Assembly: GCA_003614735.1 (NCBI GenBank)
Contig: KZ992606.1
Span: forward strand, 1 to 26,737
Length of the DNA stretch: 26,737 nucleotides
Source: Thamnocephalis sphaerospora
Lineage: Eukaryota > Zoopagomycota > Zoopagomycetes > Zoopagales > Sigmoideomycetaceae
Direction of reading: 5' to 3'
A program made the position numbers and the translations under genes. Position 1 is the stretch's first letter. Every line of letters begins with the position of its first letter. The notes below the pieces were generated by a model. It had not been told where the DNA came from. It searched no databases and was given only the letters and a program-made list of their open reading frames with translations. Shown piece after piece: positions 356-24,995 of this stretch.

Positions 356-1237
356 TCAGCAACAAAAGTCGGTAAATAGCCGCGCCTTCTGGCAGTCGGG
401 CAGCAAGTATGATTCATCGTCAAACTCCAGCCCTTCCTTTGCTAACAGCGATCGCTTGGAGCAGATCTTCTCGCCACTGCCCCATTCGCTGCGTACAAAA
501 TTTCGTCAGTAGCTATAGCGCTAGTGTGGAAGGCCAAGCTGGTAGCTCACCCACTAAATCCGCCAATGAACGCATTTGCTGTCAAAACGCGATGGCCTAT
601 GCATACCGCCCGAGTAAGCATATCGATCAATCGCAATCAACGAAAAGGCGTATCTCTGCACCTACAGGGAACGGGCAGTGGGCAGAACGGATTCCATCTT
701 AGCGCTTGACCAACTAGAGAGGGGCAAAAGGATTAGCGGACTTGCACTGCCTCTAGTACCATGGCAGACTTGCCTGCTCGTGGTGATGCGTGGATCTTGT
801 TGGAGATATCCCTATAGGTGGAGTAGTAACCTAGGGAGTGCATCACTCAGCACACGCCGATGCGCGGTCACAAACTTTATACGCTGCCATACCCTCGGGA
901 ATCTGTGCGCACATGTCGTAAACACGGAACTGGAACGCAGTGACGCGTCGACCAGTTCGTTTGTTGACAAAGTCTTTACGCTCTGCTGCTGTAGACGGAA
1001 AGTATACTGAAGCGAGCGGATACAGACACGCAGTCAGCCCGAGCAAGTGTGCCGCATAGTGATAGACCAACCTTGCTCCAGCGTGCTCGCGGTAGCCGCC
1101 TGTGCAGCGTCGTCATTGCTACTTTCATTGTCCTCTGCGTCGCGGCACTCTGGCTTCTTTCCCGCGCCAAAGTAGGGCGAGCGCTGGGACGTTTTGCGCT
1201 GGGTAGCAGCGGCAGTATGGCGGCGAGCAGGTGGCAT
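356..1237 (-). CDS. MGT1: O6-alkylguanine-DNA alkyltransferase (MGMT family), 6 exons
   Basis: Suicide DNA-repair enzyme that moves the alkyl group from O6-alkylguanine to its own cysteine. Exons on the minus strand are 1237-1072, 1006-893, 830-774, 713-666, 596-551 and 488-356. All phases join, giving 187 residues, close to the yeast enzyme. The diagnostic segments are TAFQFRVYDMCAQIPEG (DNA-binding core), SPRAVGQALRWNPF, PCHRV with the acceptor Cys at about residue 129, and FIGGFSGEWG, followed by an LFTDF-like tail. Each segment sits on a different exon, so the splice model is well constrained. Intron 3 (714-773) starts with GC (AG|GCAAGT) and is needed to join PRA to VGQAL. The start at 1237 gives the usual length; an in-frame ATG at 1282 would add 15 residues. 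The N-terminal 55 residues are low-complexity and not conserved. Identification is firm; the first exon boundary is less certain. Confidence 0.93.
714..773 (-). other. GC-AG intron in the alkyltransferase gene
   Basis: The donor reads AG|GCAAGT and the acceptor CTCTAG, with a GCTAAT branch-like site between. No GT donor nearby keeps the frame, whereas this one joins SPRA to VGQAL exactly as in the MGMT family. The intron is 60 nt. The extended match to the GC-donor consensus supports real splicing over a sequence error. Confidence 0.8.
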
Positions 1238-1309
1238 TGTGTAGTAGGCAGGAGGAAAACAATGTTTGGGCGGATTAGTCATGCTCGAGCGGTTCAATGT
1301 GATGACACA

Positions 1310-1350
1310 GTGCCAATTGCATGGGCTGCGCCCTGGCTTGCCAGTTCCAC
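1310..1350. repeat. Diverged direct repeat, copy 1, upstream of the alkyltransferase
   Basis: This 41 bp segment matches 5266-5307 in the same orientation. There are 34 identities, one single-base gap and seven mismatches, all C/T transitions. It lies 73-113 bases upstream of the alkyltransferase ATG and just downstream of the primase-helicase stop codon. The shared core is TGCGCCCTGG. It may be a promoter element or the trace of a duplication. Confidence 0.55.
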
Positions 1351-1387
1351 CCGTGTATGTATTCAAATCAACCCTCGCCCGGTCACA

Positions 1388-4300
1388 TCAGTCACACATG
1401 CGCAGACGCAGCGATCGTTGCCGCAAACTGCTGGTGTCGGTCTTTTCGCGAGTTCTCTTTGCTAGCAGCCTTTGCGATCCAGTACCGGCTGACAGCATCA
1501 GTGGCTCGTCGTCGGCGTCGGTGTAAATGTCAACGTCCGTGTCCTGCTCCGTGCTGTCTTCAGGCGCATCGTCTGCGGATGGACTGCTCAAATGCTCAAA
1601 CTCGTTGGCAGCTTCTCGCATTAGCTGTGGATCAATGATCAGCCTGTAGCTGTCAAAGTGCGTAGGCGGCATAATGCAGCGCAGCAGCGCCAGAGTTCTT
1701 GTTAGTCCGACGTATTTGATGAACCGATCGTGAAACTTTAAGCTAATTGACGAGCAGCTCAGACAACTGCCGGCCAACTGGTTGGCAGTCTTGCGCGTCT
1801 CGCGCCACACCTTGAATCCCTGTCGCATAGGAATGATCGCCTTGATGGCCGGTCGAAACTCTTTGACAAGCGCCAGCAGTCGCTCCAGCGTGGGCGGCCT
1901 GCCCTCGGCCGGCTTGAAGCTGTTCAGATGAAAGATATATCCGCTGGAGAATGCGCCATACGCCAGCAGCAGCCGATAGGTGAGTTTGGCAAACATAGGC
2001 GATGCGCTGCTGAGCGGCGTGCCCGTCCTTTCGCTCGCATCAGCCTTGTAAGAGAGGCGCTGCTGAAAGTAAGTGTATGTGTTGAGATCAACCATGTCCC
2101 CGCGCGTGCTAAGACAAAAGTCGAGAAACGCGCTAAGCTGTAGCGTGGGCGCAAGCGTCTGCGCAACATCAGAAGCAGACATGGACTCGATTTTGGGGAA
2201 AATGTTGACCAACACTGCCCTTGCATGTTTGCGCTCTGGGTACTTGATAAAGTCGTCCAGCGACGCTCCGGCCTCTTCGTAATGCAAAGCCATAATGGCA
2301 CGCAATTGACGCGACGCTGCAAGGTCAAGCTCATGAGCAAGATCAAACACGTCTGCCTCGTGATCCAGCAGCCGTGCGCGCGAGACACTGCTGGCAGTCC
2401 GGACCCATTTGCGTACATGCGCAACGACCCATTTGCGGTTGTAGACTGACGTGTCTGGTGTGTTTGGCAGCCTGACAAACGTATGCCTGGCGTTGTCACC
2501 GGTAGGCGCGCGATTCCAGATCCAATAGTGCTGACCGATGTTGTCCACTCGCTTGTCATATGCTGACACAAACTCTGATGCCATGTAGCATGTGACATCG
2601 CTATCGATGCTGGTCGCTTGAACGGCGTCTGTGTTCTCTTCAAGTGAGGCGATGTGATCGGGCGCATGGCTGGACTGGATCTCCATGGGCGCTTGGTCCG
2701 TATTCTCGCCCATGACATGGAGCCGCGAGACTAGCTGAGCCCCACCGCGTGCGCTGGCATCAATGTACAAGAAATAAAACGATACGCGGAATCGTTCGCT
2801 GAAGCTGTGGCCAGCTTGTACAGCGGGAGTGACTACCAACACGTCGACGTCTGATGCGTATTTCTCCGATGCGCACAGAAATTGCTGATTCCATGGCAGA
2901 TGCTGCACCGAGCTCCAGATGCCATGAATGTGCTCCTGCGCAGTCTTGCCAAACTCCTCCCGCGCCACTCTCTGCAACAGGTTGGTCACTAGCATGGCGT
3001 GATCGGCCCGCGTACAAAAGACGATGATTGGATTGCGGCTGCGGTGGGACTGTCGGTCCATGCTGGCAACGTATGTGCCAAATAGCACCGAAAGCATGCC
3101 AGCGTGGTCGCTGGTAGCTCGGTGCTGCAGCAACGAGACAGGGCCCAGCTTGTGCTTGCACACTTCCGCTTCCTGATCAACCTCGGCAGACTCGCAGTAG
3201 AATCTGATGCAGGACTCTGTGATGCGGTGCTGTGACAAGATAATCTTTTCCGCACCGCGCAAAATCTCACCAAGATGCTTACTTATACGGGCCATGCGAT
3301 TGGACATGACGCTAGAGACGAGCTGATAGCGAAGAGACGCCGCATCGTCTAGCAGTACCACGTCAAACTCGCTCTGTGCCACCAGATGAAGACTGCCTAT
3401 GCACACGACAATGCGTCTGCCAGGTTTCGCGTCGGTGCTGGGCCTTTTCGAGGTATGTTCGGCCCCGCTAGTATCTGGCTCAAGCTGGCAATATTCGAGG
3501 CCAAGCTGTTTGGCAATTTGCTTTGCTGACGCGACGCGAAGTGCAATGGCCATTACGGCGAGCTGCGGGTTGGCTTTTACGTAATCTGCAACAGCGTGCG
3601 TTCTGTCAGCACCCGCAGGTGCGTCGATCGCTATGATGCGCTCCTGCACATTAAAATCTATGTTGCTACTATTGTTTGTGCTGGGCTTTGCGTGACCTGA
3701 GCTGGCCAGGTCTTGGGACGATTGTGCTACATATTCTTGCTGATCCGCCGCGCAGACAAGCCATGCGATCTGGCAACCATTAATGCAAAATATGCCGCGA
3801 TCGCCGCAGGATGACTCAAAAACCTTTGCAGATGGCACTCCATGGGGAACACCGTGCTGGCCACGAGCTCTAGCGTATCGGACGTTGCACTTGCGGCAAT
3901 GCACGATGCTATCGTTGCTCAGATCGCGCGCCGCAACAAGACGCCTTTGCTCATTGAACAGCAGCGTTCCATCATCCAGCAGAGTGCTGTTGGCGTAGGC
4001 GAGCATGGGCGATTGGCGAAGCTTGGTGGCGGTCGTCTGACGCACACCCGTCCAGCCGGCTATGTCTGCGTTGCACCAGTCCACGTCGGCGGCGCTTTCC
4101 AGGAATCGGCCTTCCCGTCGCATGGCGCTGATGGGCTTACGGCCTCCAGAAGTCATATTGCTGTAGGCCATGGTGACGGACAGGCGGTAGAGAAATGACG
4201 ACGGAGCAACGTGGCGCGGCCTTTCTCCTGCGCCCACCGCCGTGACCATCGTCTCGCAGAGGTGCGTCGGCGATGTCACCAGATCGCGGAAGCACCAAGA

Positions 4301-5108
4301 CGCAGGTGTAAATTGAATAGGCAGAATAAATAGGTTGAGCGTATTGCTGGGCATAGCCTTGACCGGCATTAGAGGACGGTCGCTGCCAAAGTCCGTGTTG
4401 CCAAAAAGGCGGAGCGGCTGATTGTAATTGTACACATTGAGGTCGATAAGCTCCGGCGAAAGAACCGACCGTGCCCATACGTCATCGGGATCTTGGCGAT
4501 ATTCCGCGCGCAACATTGGCATACGATATGTAATAAAAGCACGGAACTCGGCGCACGTGGCCAGTGCTGACACGGGCGCAGTGTCTAGCACAAGCCCGCG
4601 ACAGACCATACGGAGCGAAAACTTTTCCGGGCTGCACGCAGAGGCAACGGCGACCTTTGGGGCCAGACTGTCGCCGAATGCACGGGCAAGAAATCTAGCG
4701 AGCAGACGATAAACGTGTGTAGGCAGCATCGTCGTTCGCCGCCACTCACTCGTGCAAAAGATGGTAAAGCAGCGTGGCTAGCGCGCTGGCCCGCCCTACC
4801 GTCAGGTCTCCGGCATCAAACGACTGTCCAGCGTCAAAGTACATCCTGACGCGCTTTCTGGATGACACCACTTCGTAAAAGCTTGGCTGCATGCGCTGCG
4901 CCATCTTCTCGTAGATAGCATGGGCGCTGGCAACGAGAAAACGCTTGGCGATGTGCGACGCTGTATCGCCCCTATGGTTGACCCCCTGCCGTTGTATATC
5001 CTCCGCCCACACCTGGCCGCTTCGACCTTTGGCGACGCTGTACGCGGCGGCCAGCGTGCTCCGAGGACAGATGCCGTCTTGCACGCCTGAGCGCTGGTAG
5101 GCAGACAT
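1388..5108 (-). CDS. AEP primase / UL9-like helicase fusion with eroded catalytic motifs
   Basis: A primase-polymerase (AEP) module fused to an SF2 helicase of the herpesvirus origin-binding (UL9-like) type. Proposed exons are 5108-4750 and 4667-1388, giving 1,212 residues. The 82-nt intron (GTGAGT...ACAG) joins the two frames in phase. Without splicing, the front frame stops at 4746 and the second could start at the ATG at 4729. Primase landmarks: FYEVV...RMYFDAG (about 78-94), ASACSPEKFSLRM (128-140), IDLNVY (194-199). A Cys-rich patch follows (six Cys, about 377-425). Helicase landmarks: APAGADRT at the Walker A position (469-476), VVLLDDAAS at Walker B (556-564), VVTPAVQAGHSF (motif V, 731-742), QLVSRLHVM (motif VI, 764-772). 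Several catalytic positions differ from the family: the second acid of primase motif I, the His of motif II, the Walker A Lys and the Walker B Glu. The frame is nevertheless open for over 3 kb. An acidic then basic tail ends the protein. Domain assignment is by motif order and spacing. Confidence 0.72.
4668..4749 (-). other. Candidate intron joining the primase N-terminus to the rest
   Basis: It begins GTGAGT and ends GACAG, is 82 nt long, and joins phase 2 to phase 1 so that the frame carrying motif I continues into the frame carrying motif II. The alternative is a one-base frameshift in the 35-40 nt overlap where both frames are open. The intron body also encodes a plausible helix, so splicing is likely but not certain. 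Confidence 0.55.
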
Positions 5109-18374: not shown

Positions 18375-19339
18375 TCACTCTGTCAGCTCCACAAAGGATG
18401 ACTGAGGCTTGCTGGTGTGTGCCGAATGCACATGCGCGATAATAAGTACCGAGCAGACGAACCTACGTGTGCATGCCGGGTTAATCGCAGCAACACAGCG
18501 GCGCAGACGCCATGTTCTTACCAGTCCAACATGTAGACGACTCCTGAAAATGTGCCCGACAGATCGAAAGCAATGATAAATAGACAGGTGAGATGAGAGA
18601 GAAGCAGGCACAGAATGAGCTGAGTGCCACTTTGCGTCAGCTGCTTCCAGGCTTCCGAGCCAAAGCGACGCAGGTGGCGGAAGACGACCACGAGGAAAAC
18701 GGCCGAGCATGCAACGTCCAAGGGAACGTACAGGCCAAAGCGTATCCACGGATAGTAGAATCGATAGTCGACCGTACATTCGCAGGTTGATCCTTGGATG
18801 GCGGGGCTGGCCCATGCCGCATAGACAAGGAGCGGTGGCGCAGCTATAATCAACAGGCCGAAAACAAGCATCCAGCGAGGTCGGTCCTGAACAATGTATG
18901 CCTTTTGCAGCAGCACAGCACTGATGCACGCTTCGCCTAGATTGGCGGTGACAGCCGCCGTCCACGCGCTTTTCCGACACGTAGCACCGTCGGGATGCAG
19001 CGAAGAGATTGCCACCGCGTTGTACGCAACACCGCACGTCGTTTGGATTAGACAGCACCAGCTGGCCAGAGCGTGCGGGCGCATGCGTATCATGCCGATG
19101 GATAGCCATAGGCAGTGCAGAAACACCAGCAGCATGATGATATTGAGGAATCTTTGCGTGTACATGCCAGAAAAATGCGCCCGCTGCTCCTCTATATTAT
19201 GGCCGGCCTCCACAATGCATTGAAAAGAGTTTCGCTCGCCCAGCGGATGAAGAGGAATGGAGCCAAACCAAATGGCGTCTTTTTGCCACTCTGGATCCGG
19301 CTGCGCGTGCATGTTCATGCTATCACTACTCGGCAGCAT
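18375..19339 (-). CDS. Seven-transmembrane protein, paralogue 1, 2 exons
   Basis: Integral membrane protein of a fungal 7TM family with no function I can name. Exons are 19339-18522 and 18462-18375 on the minus strand, giving 301 residues. Seven hydrophobic segments can be counted, with an outer N-terminus carrying WFGSIPLHPLGE. Shared with paralogue 2 (22905-23891) are ASWCCL-Q, LLQ-AY-V, RFGSEAW followed by GTQ, and LDW in the last segment. The 59-nt intron (18463-18521, GTAAGA...CGTAG) splits the Trp codon of LDW, and removing it restores the seventh helix (FVCSVLIIAHVHSA). Paralogue 2 has no intron there. The C-terminal tail is short. Start choice is between ATGs at 19339 and 19321; no N-terminal signal peptide is obvious. 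Confidence 0.78.
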
Positions 19340-20225: not shown

Positions 20226-20870
20226 CCGGCTGCTACATGTCATTTGCATACCACTTTAATAGGACGGCGTATTATGCCTAGTCGGATTGCCTGTAGTGGC
20301 GGCAAGGCCCGGCTGTCTATCCTCAGCAGAGCACAGGCAAGGCAGTTGCTATTGCCTACACGCCCAAAGCGGCATTATACTTACGTCGCTCCGGTTACAC
20401 CAGAGTCCGAGAGTAGCCCAGTAGCTGCCGGTACCAAACGCGCACAAAACCCTGCGTGCTGCATGTTAGCCTTCTTTGCTAGATTTACAAGGCCGTACGG
20501 GGCTGCGTCTGTCTGCAAAAAACCATCGAGATCATCGCCTTGCACCTCTGCAAGCCTGCTTTTCTAATCTAGGCATGCATTGCCTTTTATATACGGCTAC
20601 GCATCCTTGATTGGGTGTGTCCATCGGAAGAATGCACAAGTATTACTGCCTTGTGCTCTGCTTTTATGTGGGACTAGCGCCATTAATTGGCTAGTCGCAT
20701 GCGCACCATGACAATCGCATGATATCAGTTGTGCTGTGTCTATACTAGTCCAGGAGCTGCTGGTAATGTTGTCCATTGGTACAAATATCTGCTACCATTG
20801 GTATGCTGTGCTCCGACATATCCTCCTTCTTTTCGTTCCCATATCAGCTGGTCTTTCTACTTGTATTACG

Positions 20871-22733
20871 ATGCTTACACGCGCGCTAGCAGTGTGCCTT
20901 ATTGCCCTTGCAGCCGTCAATAGCGCCTATAGTCAGCAAAGCAGCGTGCTGCTTCAGCCAGCGGCAGGTCATGACAAAGCTGCTGTGGCCGTGGAGAGCC
21001 GAGCCAAGGTGCCTCAGCAGCAAGATGCTACGCTCACACAGACGACGCGCAGAGGCAGCATAGATCATGATGGCTTCCAGCACCCATCGTTACGTATTCT
21101 CTTTAGCGCAACGCTGGGCGGATCCTCTCACATTTTGCCACTCCTGGACATGGGCGAAGCGTTGGTGGCACGAGGACATAATGTTACCTTTGCTACGTAC
21201 AACGAGTTGCTGCCCGATTATTTGCAGCCAGACTCTGAAATCAAAGGACTGGCTCTGGGCAAGGACACGTTTGGGCCCGAAAAGCGGGATGAAGTCTGGG
21301 GCAAGCACATGCACCATGACGGCGATGTGGACGAGCTACAGGTGCAGTACCTGATCGTCGAGTCGACTCTGGATACCTATCCAGAGCACTACAGGCGCTA
21401 TCGCGCTTGGATTACCGCAAATGAGCCGGACGTGTTTGTGTGCGATCTCTTTGCTGCAGCTTGCGCAGATGCTGCATACGAGGCCGGTGTGCCCTTTGTC
21501 ATTGTCAGCAGCACGGTGAACTTTCAGGGCTTTGCCGATCAGCCGTACCTATCCAACTTTTTGGGTCGCTTGCCGCCCACATACGAAAGCGCCGGCTTTT
21601 TTGAGCGTTTCGTAGATGCTGTGCTTATCCAGGCGAATATGGTCAGGCGCTTTCTGCCGCTGCTCCAACGACAGAGCGCCATATTTGCCGAGCTTGGTAT
21701 CCGCCCTTATGCTGGAGCACCGGAACGTTGGCACGACGGACTGGTGGTTATCAACAACTATTTTGGCTTTGAGGTAAGAAAGATAGCGGCGCTGTAGGTG
21801 GCCGCAGCTCATATTTAGTACATCCGCCAGACGCCACGACCATTACCGCCCAATACTTTTATGGTTGGACCGTACATGTCGCGCACTTACCCGCCTCTGT
21901 CGGACGAACTGAGCGCTTTTATGAACGCTCGCAAGCGGGTGGCCTATGTTGGATTTGGCGGTCAGGTTATCATGACAAAGGAGCGCGTTGCAGTAATCCT
22001 AGTCGAACTGCTGCGCGCACACCGCGATGGATTGCTGGATGGCGCAATATGGGGCTTGATGCTACTCAATAATGATGGCTTGCTGCCGGAAACCGTCCAA
22101 CTGGAAGGCCGTAATCCGGGCGATCCCTCAGAGACGCACAACATTGCGGACATGCGCGCAGGCAAGCATCCTGTCGTGCGTCTTTTGAACCGTGCACCGC
22201 AGCGTGCTATCCTGCATCACTCCGCCACACAGCTATTCATATCGCATGCTGGCATCCATTCCACCTACGAGAGCCTGTACGCCGGTGTCCCAATGCTGTG
22301 CATGCCAGTAATCGGCGATCAGACACCCAACTCGATCAAGCTGGAACACAACGGTGCGGGTCTTTGGCTGCAGCGGGGCAAAATCACCGGCGAATCGCTT
22401 CGCCAGCAGCTGTATCGCCTTTTGGGTCCCGAGGAATCCGAGTACTTTCGCGCCAATGCAGCGCGCATGCAGCGTGCCATTAGGCTGCTCGACCGCGATC
22501 ACAGCCGGGTGCTTGACCTGATTGAGATGGCAGCCGTGCCTGGCACCATAGCCGCGCATGAGAGTGCCGACTGGCGGATGCCGTGGTGGAAGGCCCGCAA
22601 CTATGACATTTACACCTTTATCTTTACGCTCTTTGGCGCGGTTTGTCTGCTGGTGGTCCATGCAGTGCGCCTTGCACTGGCGTATGTAAAGCGTCGAGTA
22701 CGCGCAGTGCTGGTCAAGCAGAAGCAACTGTAA
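20871..22733 (+). CDS. UDP-glycosyltransferase, signal peptide and C-terminal membrane anchor, 2 exons
   Basis: GT1-family enzyme moving a sugar from a UDP-sugar to a small or lipid acceptor, probably in the secretory pathway lumen. Exons 20871-21773 and 21819-22733 are joined across a 45-nt intron, giving 605 residues. MLTRALAVCLIALAAVNSAYS is a signal peptide. The N-terminal acceptor domain starts with ILFSATLGGSSHILPLLDMG, where His87 sits at the catalytic-base position of UGTs. The donor domain carries FISHAGIHSTYESLYAGVPMLCMP...GDQ, the UGT signature, with HAG where HGG is usual. Near the end, a hydrophobic helix (YTFIFTLFGAVCLLVVHAV) and a basic tail (KRRVRAVLVKQKQL) give the type I topology of animal UGTs. 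An in-frame frame extends upstream to 20736, but the ATG at 20871 precedes the signal peptide directly. Acceptor unknown. It lies between two 7TM paralogues. Confidence 0.9.
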
Positions 22734-22904: not shown

Positions 22905-23891
22905 CTATCGAAGCATCATGTAGCAGGCGTTGCGTTGCCGCGGCTGCACCTGATTGGCGGCTGCAGCGTGTGGCGAACGATTCCGCACAGCGTTTGTGTT
23001 GGATGGCGTGTCGGATGTTGTGTGCATAGTGCATATTGCGACACAGTGGCGCACTAGTAATGCAGAGGTGACGACCCAGTCTAATAAGATAAACATTTCG
23101 GAATGCGTGCCGAGAGCTTCGAATGCAACGCAAAACATGCAAATAAAGTTGGTAATGACAATTGCACAAATAGTCTGTGTTCCGTTGCGAACAAGACGCG
23201 CCCATGCCGCGGAACCGTAGCGGCGATACTGGCGATATACAACCATGATAAAAGCACCGGAAAACAAAATGTTGATTGGCGCCTCCATTCCAAGCTTTAC
23301 CCAGGGAAAATATGGCGGATAATAGACGATGCCTCCAACGCCCGGTGCCGAAGCCACCGGACTTGTCCAGAGCGTATAGGTGATAAACGGCTGTGGAAGC
23401 AGAAAAATGATGCCGGTCACCAGCAGCCATTTGTTGCGGTTGTGAACCAGATAGGCCCTTTGTAGTAAGGCGACGCTCACGCAGATCGAAGACACTGGCA
23501 ACGTAATGCCGACAAACCAGAGCAGTTGGCGATACGACGGTCCTCCAGGCATGTGAACCAGAAATATGATCACCACGTATCCTACGCCGACGAGACCCTG
23601 CAAAAGACAGCACCAGCTGGCGGTCACACCGGGACACCGATAGGCCATGCGCACGGCGACGAAAAAGTTGCGCAAGAATAGGTAGCTAACGGCGACATTG
23701 ATGACAAGCTGGGCATGCGTACCGAGCAGACGGACGCGTGTTTCCTCCACGTTATCAAGCGTCTGCATTTCAAAGTCTATTACGTTCAACTCGCCCGACG
23801 GATTCAGCGGAATACCCCATTGGTAGGTTGAGTTTTCCATCCAGTCTTTTGGTAGTACACTACGGCGGCTGATGTAGTCCCAGAATCGCAT
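22905..23891 (-). CDS. Seven-transmembrane protein, paralogue 2, intronless
   Basis: Intronless paralogue of the 18375-19339 gene, 328 residues from the ATG at 23891. The frame is open upstream to an ATG at 24077, but that extra part lacks similarity to paralogue 1 and is unlikely to be translated. The N-terminal segment YQWGIPLNPSGELN aligns with WFGSIPLHPLGERN of paralogue 1. Seven hydrophobic segments follow, with ASWCCLLQ, LLQRAYLV, RRYGSAAWARL...GTQ and LLDWVVTSALL. The cytosolic tail is longer, Asn/Ser/Arg-rich, and lacks similarity to the first copy. Function unknown; a sensory or transporter-like role would be a guess. The gene is convergent with the glycosyltransferase. Confidence 0.8.
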   Translation of the reverse strand: MRFWDYISRRSVLPKDWMENSTYQWGIPLNPSGELNVIDFEMQTLDNVEETRVRLLGTHAQLVINVAVSYLFLRNFFVAVRMAYRCPGVTASWCCLLQGLVGVGYVVIIFLVHMPGGPSYRQLLWFVGITLPVSSICVSVALLQRAYLVHNRNKWLLVTGIIFLLPQPFITYTLWTSPVASAPGVGGIVYYPPYFPWVKLGMEAPINILFSGAFIMVVYRQYRRYGSAAWARLVRNGTQTICAIVITNFICMFCVAFEALGTHSEMFILLDWVVTSALLVRHCVAICTMHTTSDTPSNTNAVRNRSPHAAAANQVQPRQRNACYMMLR

Positions 23892-24995
23892 TGCCACTAG
23901 GCGTGCGGCGTATCCAGTACTGCTACTAGCGAGAGAGGGTGCGTTTCGGGCGGAACAGCGGCGAGTGCGAGTGCAACACCGGATGTACATATGCACTGGC
24001 GTAATGGTCGGCCAAAGGTAGAGACGCAAGGCATACCAATAACACGAAAGCACCGGTAGTCTGTGCATACACCGCATGACGACAGCCGTATTACGCCCGC
24101 GCAGTATTCGTATTCAGACCGCGCATACCGCGCGACAGCCCGCTGCACCGTCTTGTGCTACCTGTGTTTATGGCGATGGCGGCCGCCAAAGACACCATGG
24201 TGCAGCATTGCTCAAGCATGCGGTGCAGAATACAACGCTGCTGCCCAGGCGTCCATTGGTGCATCTGAATCCGGCTAGCAGCCCGCAGGAGCAGGTACCA
24301 CCAGAGGCATGCGGACTGCCTATTGCAGCGGCGGTGACCGTCTGGCCAATTTCATCATCGATCTACCAGGCGAATGCCTGGTCTACTGCCTGGGTGTGCA
24401 GGCCATGCGACCGATGTTCGCGGCATCGTCGTGGCACAATGCTTTTGCACCTTGGCCAAAGCGGATGGCCGCCGTCGCCGTCGTGCTCTCTAGCAAAGCG
24501 TGCAAGCTATGCAGCGATGCCGTCCGGATCCGCATGCACAAAAATTCGCCCATCTGCGGATCCGCCCTTTGATTGCAGCGTCACATGATGGATGGCTGGC
24601 CGGCATGCTTGGTGCGCTGCTGTCTTTTGAGTGGTGCCGACTCCTGTACCTGCGCGGCACAAAACCCCCAGACTGTCCGGCCGATGAATCGTCGGTAATG
24701 CCGAGCCCACCATCGCCCGCCCAGGTCATCTTTGCGTGGCGCTAGCCAGTCGCGCACTGCATCCCATGCACGCACTCTGTCATCGGTCGTCTACAATGCA
24801 GCATTACACTATTGAATGGTACAATCGGCGGCTGCCGTCAGTTTGCGGCGATGCAGTCGGACAGCCTTCGTACGCAAGCCAAGCATGTTGGCTACTTTGC
24901 GCGCAACGACGCATTTTCAAGCACATGCTCCGGCCTGCCACCGCGCTCTTAAACTGCTAGGTACATGATGCGGGCCCCCACGCGGCCGCCGCCGT
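23892..24995. other. Region with open frames but no resolved gene
   Basis: Several plus-strand frames look partly coding. One from 24076 has an Arg/Thr/Ala-rich start resembling a mitochondrial presequence. Another around 24330-24500 reads LANFIIDLPGECLVYCLGVQ. A third around 24545-24745 reads LIAASHDGWLAGMLGALLSF. I could not join them with canonical, in-phase splice sites. They could be one small plus-strand gene, a decayed gene, or chance. The region should also hold the promoter of the 7TM gene at 22905-23891. Confidence 0.3.

Follow-up and report, generated by a model that had tools for sequence, protein, structure and literature searches.

Results

A complete gene of 1221 codons on the minus strand

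Can a long reading frame that has lost catalytic residues be anything other than a relic in recent decay? A locus of Thamnocephalis sphaerospora, described as one of the mycoparasitic fungi sequenced through single-cell genomics (PMC6784888), raises this question. A first-pass annotation had read it as an AEP primase joined to a UL9-like SF2 helicase with four substituted catalytic residues, and had left recent decay and host use as a binding or structural protein as the alternatives.

The window, by which we mean the whole stretch of 26,737 nt that was analysed, is the entire contig C183 of a 14.46 Mb assembly of 594 contigs. Read on the minus strand, the gene extends from an ATG at 5108 to a stop codon at 1390–1388, and consists of exon 1 (4750..5108; residues 1–119 and two bases of codon 120), a 55-nt GT-AG intron in phase 2 (4695..4749) and exon 2 (1388..4694, including the stop codon). 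Once the intron is removed the frame is open, with 1221 codons and 0 internal stops, confirming both the coordinates and the long frame of about 1,200 codons reported earlier. Unspliced, exon 2 lies in a stop-to-stop frame of 1129 codons, while its other five frames, of ~1,100 codons each, hold 25, 38, 54, 39 and 27 stops. In a protein search, the spliced 1221-aa model was identical to the deposited T. sphaerospora protein THASP1DRAFT_29781, whose UniRef label starts 'Replication origin-'. The GC3 of the gene is 0.639 (0.55–0.65 in the other genes and ORFs measured), and the GC of the adjoining non-coding DNA, 0.53, lies below it.

A second, motif-intact copy in the same genome

A search of the genome (14.5 Mb assembly) found two copies, the window gene and a twin on contig C379 (L005) at positions 436–788 and 844–3829, continuing in another frame to ~4167. 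The two share 38% identity across 1067 aligned codons and have the same domain order; their homology covers two stretches (E values of 1.8e-101 and 6.7e-87), and in the tree they are sister sequences with full support (100/100). Both carry the 55-nt phase-2 intron at an equal position and with equal phase and length, showing that they share an origin and that the duplication is later than the intron. The twin differs from the window gene in its intact motifs (it keeps DIE, SLH, GTGKT, DEA and SRLR), in its shorter branch (0.40, compared with 1.02 for the window copy, whose row in the tree is a long branch of unusual composition) and in a change of reading frame near C379 3782–3792, which leaves the last ~110 codons in the other frame and may reflect a sequence error, an intron or real damage. 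'Intact' refers here to the catalytic motifs of the twin only, and the sequence was not joined across the frame change: the spliced twin to 3829 was used for the intron, rate, tree, simulation and motif work, and an exon 2 piece starting 20 bases inside its intron for the searches and for alignments A1–A6. With its own exon 2 as query no identical database protein was found, so the twin seems to be unannotated. This motif-intact copy with its common intron is new and lay beyond the view of the first-pass annotation.

The GC3 of the twin (0.466) is below that of the window gene and of the other genes and ORFs measured. Its neighbours include an F-box-like gene and TAF2 pieces, both below cut-off, and a bromodomain match.

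The domain assignment is reached through relatives

The window protein alone matched no Pfam family at E values up to 10, whereas the twin matched Herpes_ori_bp with 61.9 bits (cut-off 20); the family was thus reached through the twin, and the assignment rests on relatives. Among 7993 scored candidates, a protein search with window exon 2 as query returned the window's own protein as sole match; the twin as query gave 6 matches and the alignment 5, ten different proteins altogether. Motif, tree and rate work used the window protein, the twin and the long relatives P0002, P0004, P0007 and P0008, which are metagenome proteins, and P0003, from Parasitella parasitica; P0005, P0006, P0009 and P0010 were left out as distant or partial. 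The five long relatives are homologous to the window protein over most of their own length (23–29% identity), although P0003 is without the N-terminal end and P0007 without the C-terminal part, and unlike the window protein all five keep the catalytic motifs. The nearest named viral protein is the marseillevirus protein P0005, which is 32% identical to the twin across 16% of that query.

A profile of the relatives, with the window copy left out, matched the HSV-1 origin-binding protein (OBP; E 2e-15) and human PrimPol (E 1e-9), the latter with motifs I–III in register, identifying the relatives at the sequence level as fusions of a PrimPol-like AEP and a UL9-like SF2 helicase. In a fold test, the window protein showed the two-RecA fold of SF2 with OBP as the nearest structure; structure prediction for exon 2 alone had a mean pLDDT of 48.1. 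The window protein did not reach the cut-off of PF02399 (Herpes_ori_bp), which matched five of the seven members of alignment A4. This is weak evidence, because the second miss is the motif-intact P0003. The profile search suggested with the first reading gave a divided answer, no Pfam match for the window protein itself and clear matches to OBP and PrimPol for its relatives, and the proposed domain combination stands through these relatives and the fold matches.

Human PrimPol (5l2x) and HSV-1 UL9 (9hgi, 9hgj) resemble the two halves of the fusion in sequence profile and fold, with the AEP fold of the window protein itself putative, but, unlike the fusion, are separate proteins and both active enzymes. 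A passage of PMC11253617 reports fusions of this kind, an AEP domain joined to a UL9-like SF2 helicase, in large DNA viruses, and states that UL9 of mammalian herpesviruses is without the AEP domain; as described there, the viral SF2_Hel of mriyaviruses is a fusion like the window protein. A search of open-access titles and abstract starts found no literature on a fungal AEP-UL9-like family. Parasitella is a mycoparasite, so the two named fungi with the family are both mycoparasites, which with n=2 species may be chance.

Catalytic residues are substituted in both halves

All motifs were compared with six relatives (the C379 twin, P0002, P0003, P0004, P0007 and P0008), and all coordinates are on the minus strand. 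In AEP motif I (YFDAGQSFD, residues 90–98, 4815..4841) Asp92 is kept, while the second acid is replaced by Gly94, giving DAG where 6/6 relatives have DIE or DID. Motif II (KFSLRM, residues 144–149, 4607..4624) reads SLR in place of the S-x-H of 6/6 relatives, with Ser146 kept and the His changed to Arg148. Motif III (IDLNVY, residues 203–208, 4430..4447), whose register with PrimPol comes from the relatives' profile, retains Asp204 as do all six relatives. Three of the four zinc-type cysteines (residues 386–427, 3773..3898) are in register and the fourth is shifted by one residue. In the helicase half, Walker A (DAPAGADRT, residues 477–485, 3599..3625; DAPMG[ST]GKT in 6/6 relatives) has GADRT in place of G[ST]GKT through K484R and G483D, with Gly481 and Thr485 kept; the Walker B region (DVVLLDDAAS, residues 564–573, 3335..3364) has DDA for the DEA of 6/6 relatives (E570D, Asp569 kept); and motif VI (QLVSRLH, residues 773–779, 2717..2737) has SRLH for the SR[LV]R of 6/6 relatives (R779H, Arg777 kept). 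Position 760, Asp in 6/6 relatives, is Tyr. The C-terminal region (residues 801–1221, 1391..2653) is fast-evolving in the window copy and in the twin.

The four substitutions first reported, E94G, H148R, K484R and E570D, are thus real and are joined by G483D and R779H. By eye, P0005, P0006, P0009 and P0010 also retain the Walker A Lys-Thr and the Walker B Asp-Glu, and no relative with the substitutions of the window copy was found among the 7993 candidates scored in the protein search. A pattern check of the whole window protein found neither G..GK[ST] nor DEA elsewhere; intact catalytic residues at another position, which would have overturned the reading of lost function, do not occur. The motifs indicate that the helicase half is very probably dead. 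The primase half is probably dead because of E94G, the acids of AEP motifs I and III being described as essential to catalysis in a passage of PMC5862659. H148R alone is weak evidence for lost priming, because in some SF2_Hel proteins of mriyaviruses Ala or Arg takes the place of the motif II His, and the authors still think the domain active (PMC11253617, in part). Judged by sequence, the window protein is homologous to active primase and helicase families, yet by motif it is a member of neither.

The frame stayed open while invariant residues were lost

Across the six relatives 126 alignment columns are invariant, and the window copy differs at 46 of them. When each relative was left out in turn, it kept 126 of the 131–159 columns common to the other five (79–96%), while the window copy kept 84–102 of the same columns (58–65%). 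We simulated drift by mutating the 1113 spliced codons of the twin without selection until 46 losses were reached (3 settings of 60 runs each). At that point the frames had acquired on average 18.2, 17.2 and 16.6 stops, with a minimum of 9 in 180 runs; the first stop came after a mean of 2.6–3.4 losses and after at most 16, and 46 losses needed 0.21–0.22 mutations per site. The stops that a dead relic was expected to collect would thus number 17–18 on average, and the window gene has none.

Rates of change point the same way. Differences between the window gene and the twin at the three codon positions were 0.475, 0.380 and 0.675, and the pairwise maximum-likelihood (ML) omega, following the suggested dN/dS comparison, was 0.056, with omega = 1 being worse (2dlnL 300); dS was saturated at 11.2, which makes the size of omega unreliable. 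Averaged over the time since duplication, the protein has been constrained. If synonymous change is assumed to be evenly shared, the window branch carries ~72% of the amino-acid change (1.02 of 1.42) and its own omega would be near 0.08. The 46 replacements were also conservative, with a mean BLOSUM62 score of 0.00 compared with −0.66 (sd 0.22) for random mutation, a result seen in 0.32% of 5000 draws. Neutral release within the last ~0.025 substitutions per site would escape detection (5% chance of no stop).

Taken together, 46 losses with zero stops, constraint and conservative replacements make it most likely that selection was still acting on the protein when its catalytic residues were lost. 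The gene does not look like a neutral pseudogene, having 0 internal stops in 1221 codons and codon positions that evolve unequally. Of the two alternatives raised at the outset, recent decay is made unlikely by changes at 46 of 126 invariant residues in a frame that has no stop, while use without catalysis is favoured. Retention of the gene is well supported by these comparisons, which indicate that the loss of catalytic residues is not recent.

Constraint was relaxed by region

The invariant residues kept and lost by the window copy were 22 and 5 in the AEP part (residues 1–320), 10 and 3 in residues 321–435, 16 and 21 in the first RecA region (residues 436–615), 29 and 11 in residues 616–800, and 3 and 6 in residues 801–1221; the first RecA region differs from the rest (p 0.004). 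Departures from the relatives' majority residue, given as window copy/twin, were 19/12 in the AEP part, 15/3 in the zinc region and linker, 64/14 in the helicase and 15/14 in the C-terminal part. In four alignments the AEP–helicase contrast gave p values of 0.027–0.044, and that of AEP and C-terminal parts against helicase and zinc parts 0.0002–0.0008; the contrasts were unchanged with the motif residues left out. With single outgroups, the AEP–helicase contrast reached p < 0.05 in 12 of 20 outgroup–alignment combinations and never with P0008. The ML branch for the AEP part was 0.92 in the window copy and 0.51 in the twin (ratio 1.8), compared with a ratio of 3.3 in the first RecA region. By these sequence measures the window copy has evolved faster than the twin in its helicase and zinc parts, and much less so in its AEP part. 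Catalytic residues were lost no more often than others: of the strictly invariant motif residues 5 of 13 are changed, compared with 46 of 126 for all invariant columns. This argues for regional relaxation and not for targeted loss. The loss of 6 of 9 invariants in the C-terminal part speaks against a preserved C-terminal interface.

Genomic surroundings

The recognised neighbours of the window gene resemble host genes: it is adjoined by a match, below cut-off, to phosphatidylinositol transfer protein, and a UDP-glycosyltransferase gene lies farther on (20736–22733, +). The latter stands between two genes (18521–19339 and 22908–24077, both −) whose products are paralogous (32% identical over 268 aa), have by eye the appearance of multi-pass membrane proteins and are without a Pfam match.

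Of the viral contigs scanned twice (600 and 55 pattern matches), none was confirmed to carry the AEP-UL9-like family. As a check for an endogenous large DNA virus element, profile searches of the genome gave no match to PF04451, PF08706, PF04947 or PF03175, which is weak evidence because control genomes mostly gave no match either: only PF08706 was above cut-off in them, PF04451 and PF04947 were found in none, and PF03175 in none above cut-off. A weak match to PF03121 (UL52) on contig C180 was rejected; it was below cut-off, and by eye the surrounding frames look like an ABC-ATPase gene.

Discussion

We favour, with moderate confidence, the reading that the window gene is an old, retained and catalytically dead paralogue, a pseudoenzyme that probably serves its motif-intact twin as a binding partner or as a regulator. 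Such a protein, presumably used by the host, would work through binding and not through catalysis: binding to nucleic acid or to the twin would persist in the AEP domain, and perhaps in the C-terminal region, and the ATP-driven motor would no longer be needed. It would be a non-catalytic subunit or a regulator, most simply the heterodimer partner of the twin. In HSV-1 OBP the main (primary) dimer interface is placed in the C-terminal domain (PMC12543377, in part), and a title cited in that paper states that helicase-motif residues of HSV UL9 are unneeded for dimerization and origin binding. A copy whose motor is dead could, by analogy, pair with the twin and hold DNA. More tentatively, a homodimeric initiator of the AEP-UL9 type might have turned into a heterodimer in this fungus, with catalysis provided by the twin and the dead copy as the binding or structural half.

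We consider it unlikely that the gene is dying, that is, that it was long constrained, lost its function very recently and now drifts with no stop yet. Its longer branch (1.02, against 0.40 for the twin), the loss of 46 of 126 invariant residues and substitutions common to no relative found would all fit such a history, and up to ~0.025 neutral substitutions per site leave no stop at a 5% chance. That neutral time is, however, too short for the losses observed, which would need 0.21–0.22 mutations per site and bring 17–18 stops; moreover, the replacements at invariant sites are conservative, the relaxation is regional, and the gene has its start, its splice sites and its frame in place.

Rather less probable is a dominant-negative or decoy, which would bind the DNA or the partner of an active enzyme (of the twin, a replicon or a virus) and block that enzyme. 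A dead motor beside a less eroded domain of DNA-binding type is the anatomy expected of it, the cited title on UL9 dimerization and origin binding agrees with it, and dominant-negative herpesvirus proteins are the subject of a review (PMC3185506). But neither viral-contig scan confirmed an invading replicon or a virus that belongs to this family, and the expected anatomy is the same as that of a partner of the twin, so that sequence does not separate the two models. We regard it as very improbable that the protein is still active as a primase or polymerase through an unusual active site and that only its helicase half is dead. In favour of this, the protein retains Asp92, Ser146 and Asp204, its AEP part has suffered the least erosion, with 22 of 27 invariants unchanged, and Arg or Ala occurs at motif II in the mriyavirus proteins thought to be active (PMC11253617, in part); against this, the second acid of motif I, Glu or Asp in 6/6 relatives, is Gly in the window protein, and it belongs to the acids described as essential for catalysis (PMC5862659, in part).

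On the pseudoenzyme reading, a fungal genome keeps two AEP-UL9-like fusions, one motif-intact and one to all appearances catalytically dead, the latter open through deep divergence. That its frame stayed open although the catalytic residues are gone suggests a remaining, non-catalytic task for the dead copy. One duplication followed by decay of the motor in a single copy would be a natural separation-of-function experiment, and it makes testable what the cellular job of such a protein is and whether a binding role can be separated from catalysis.
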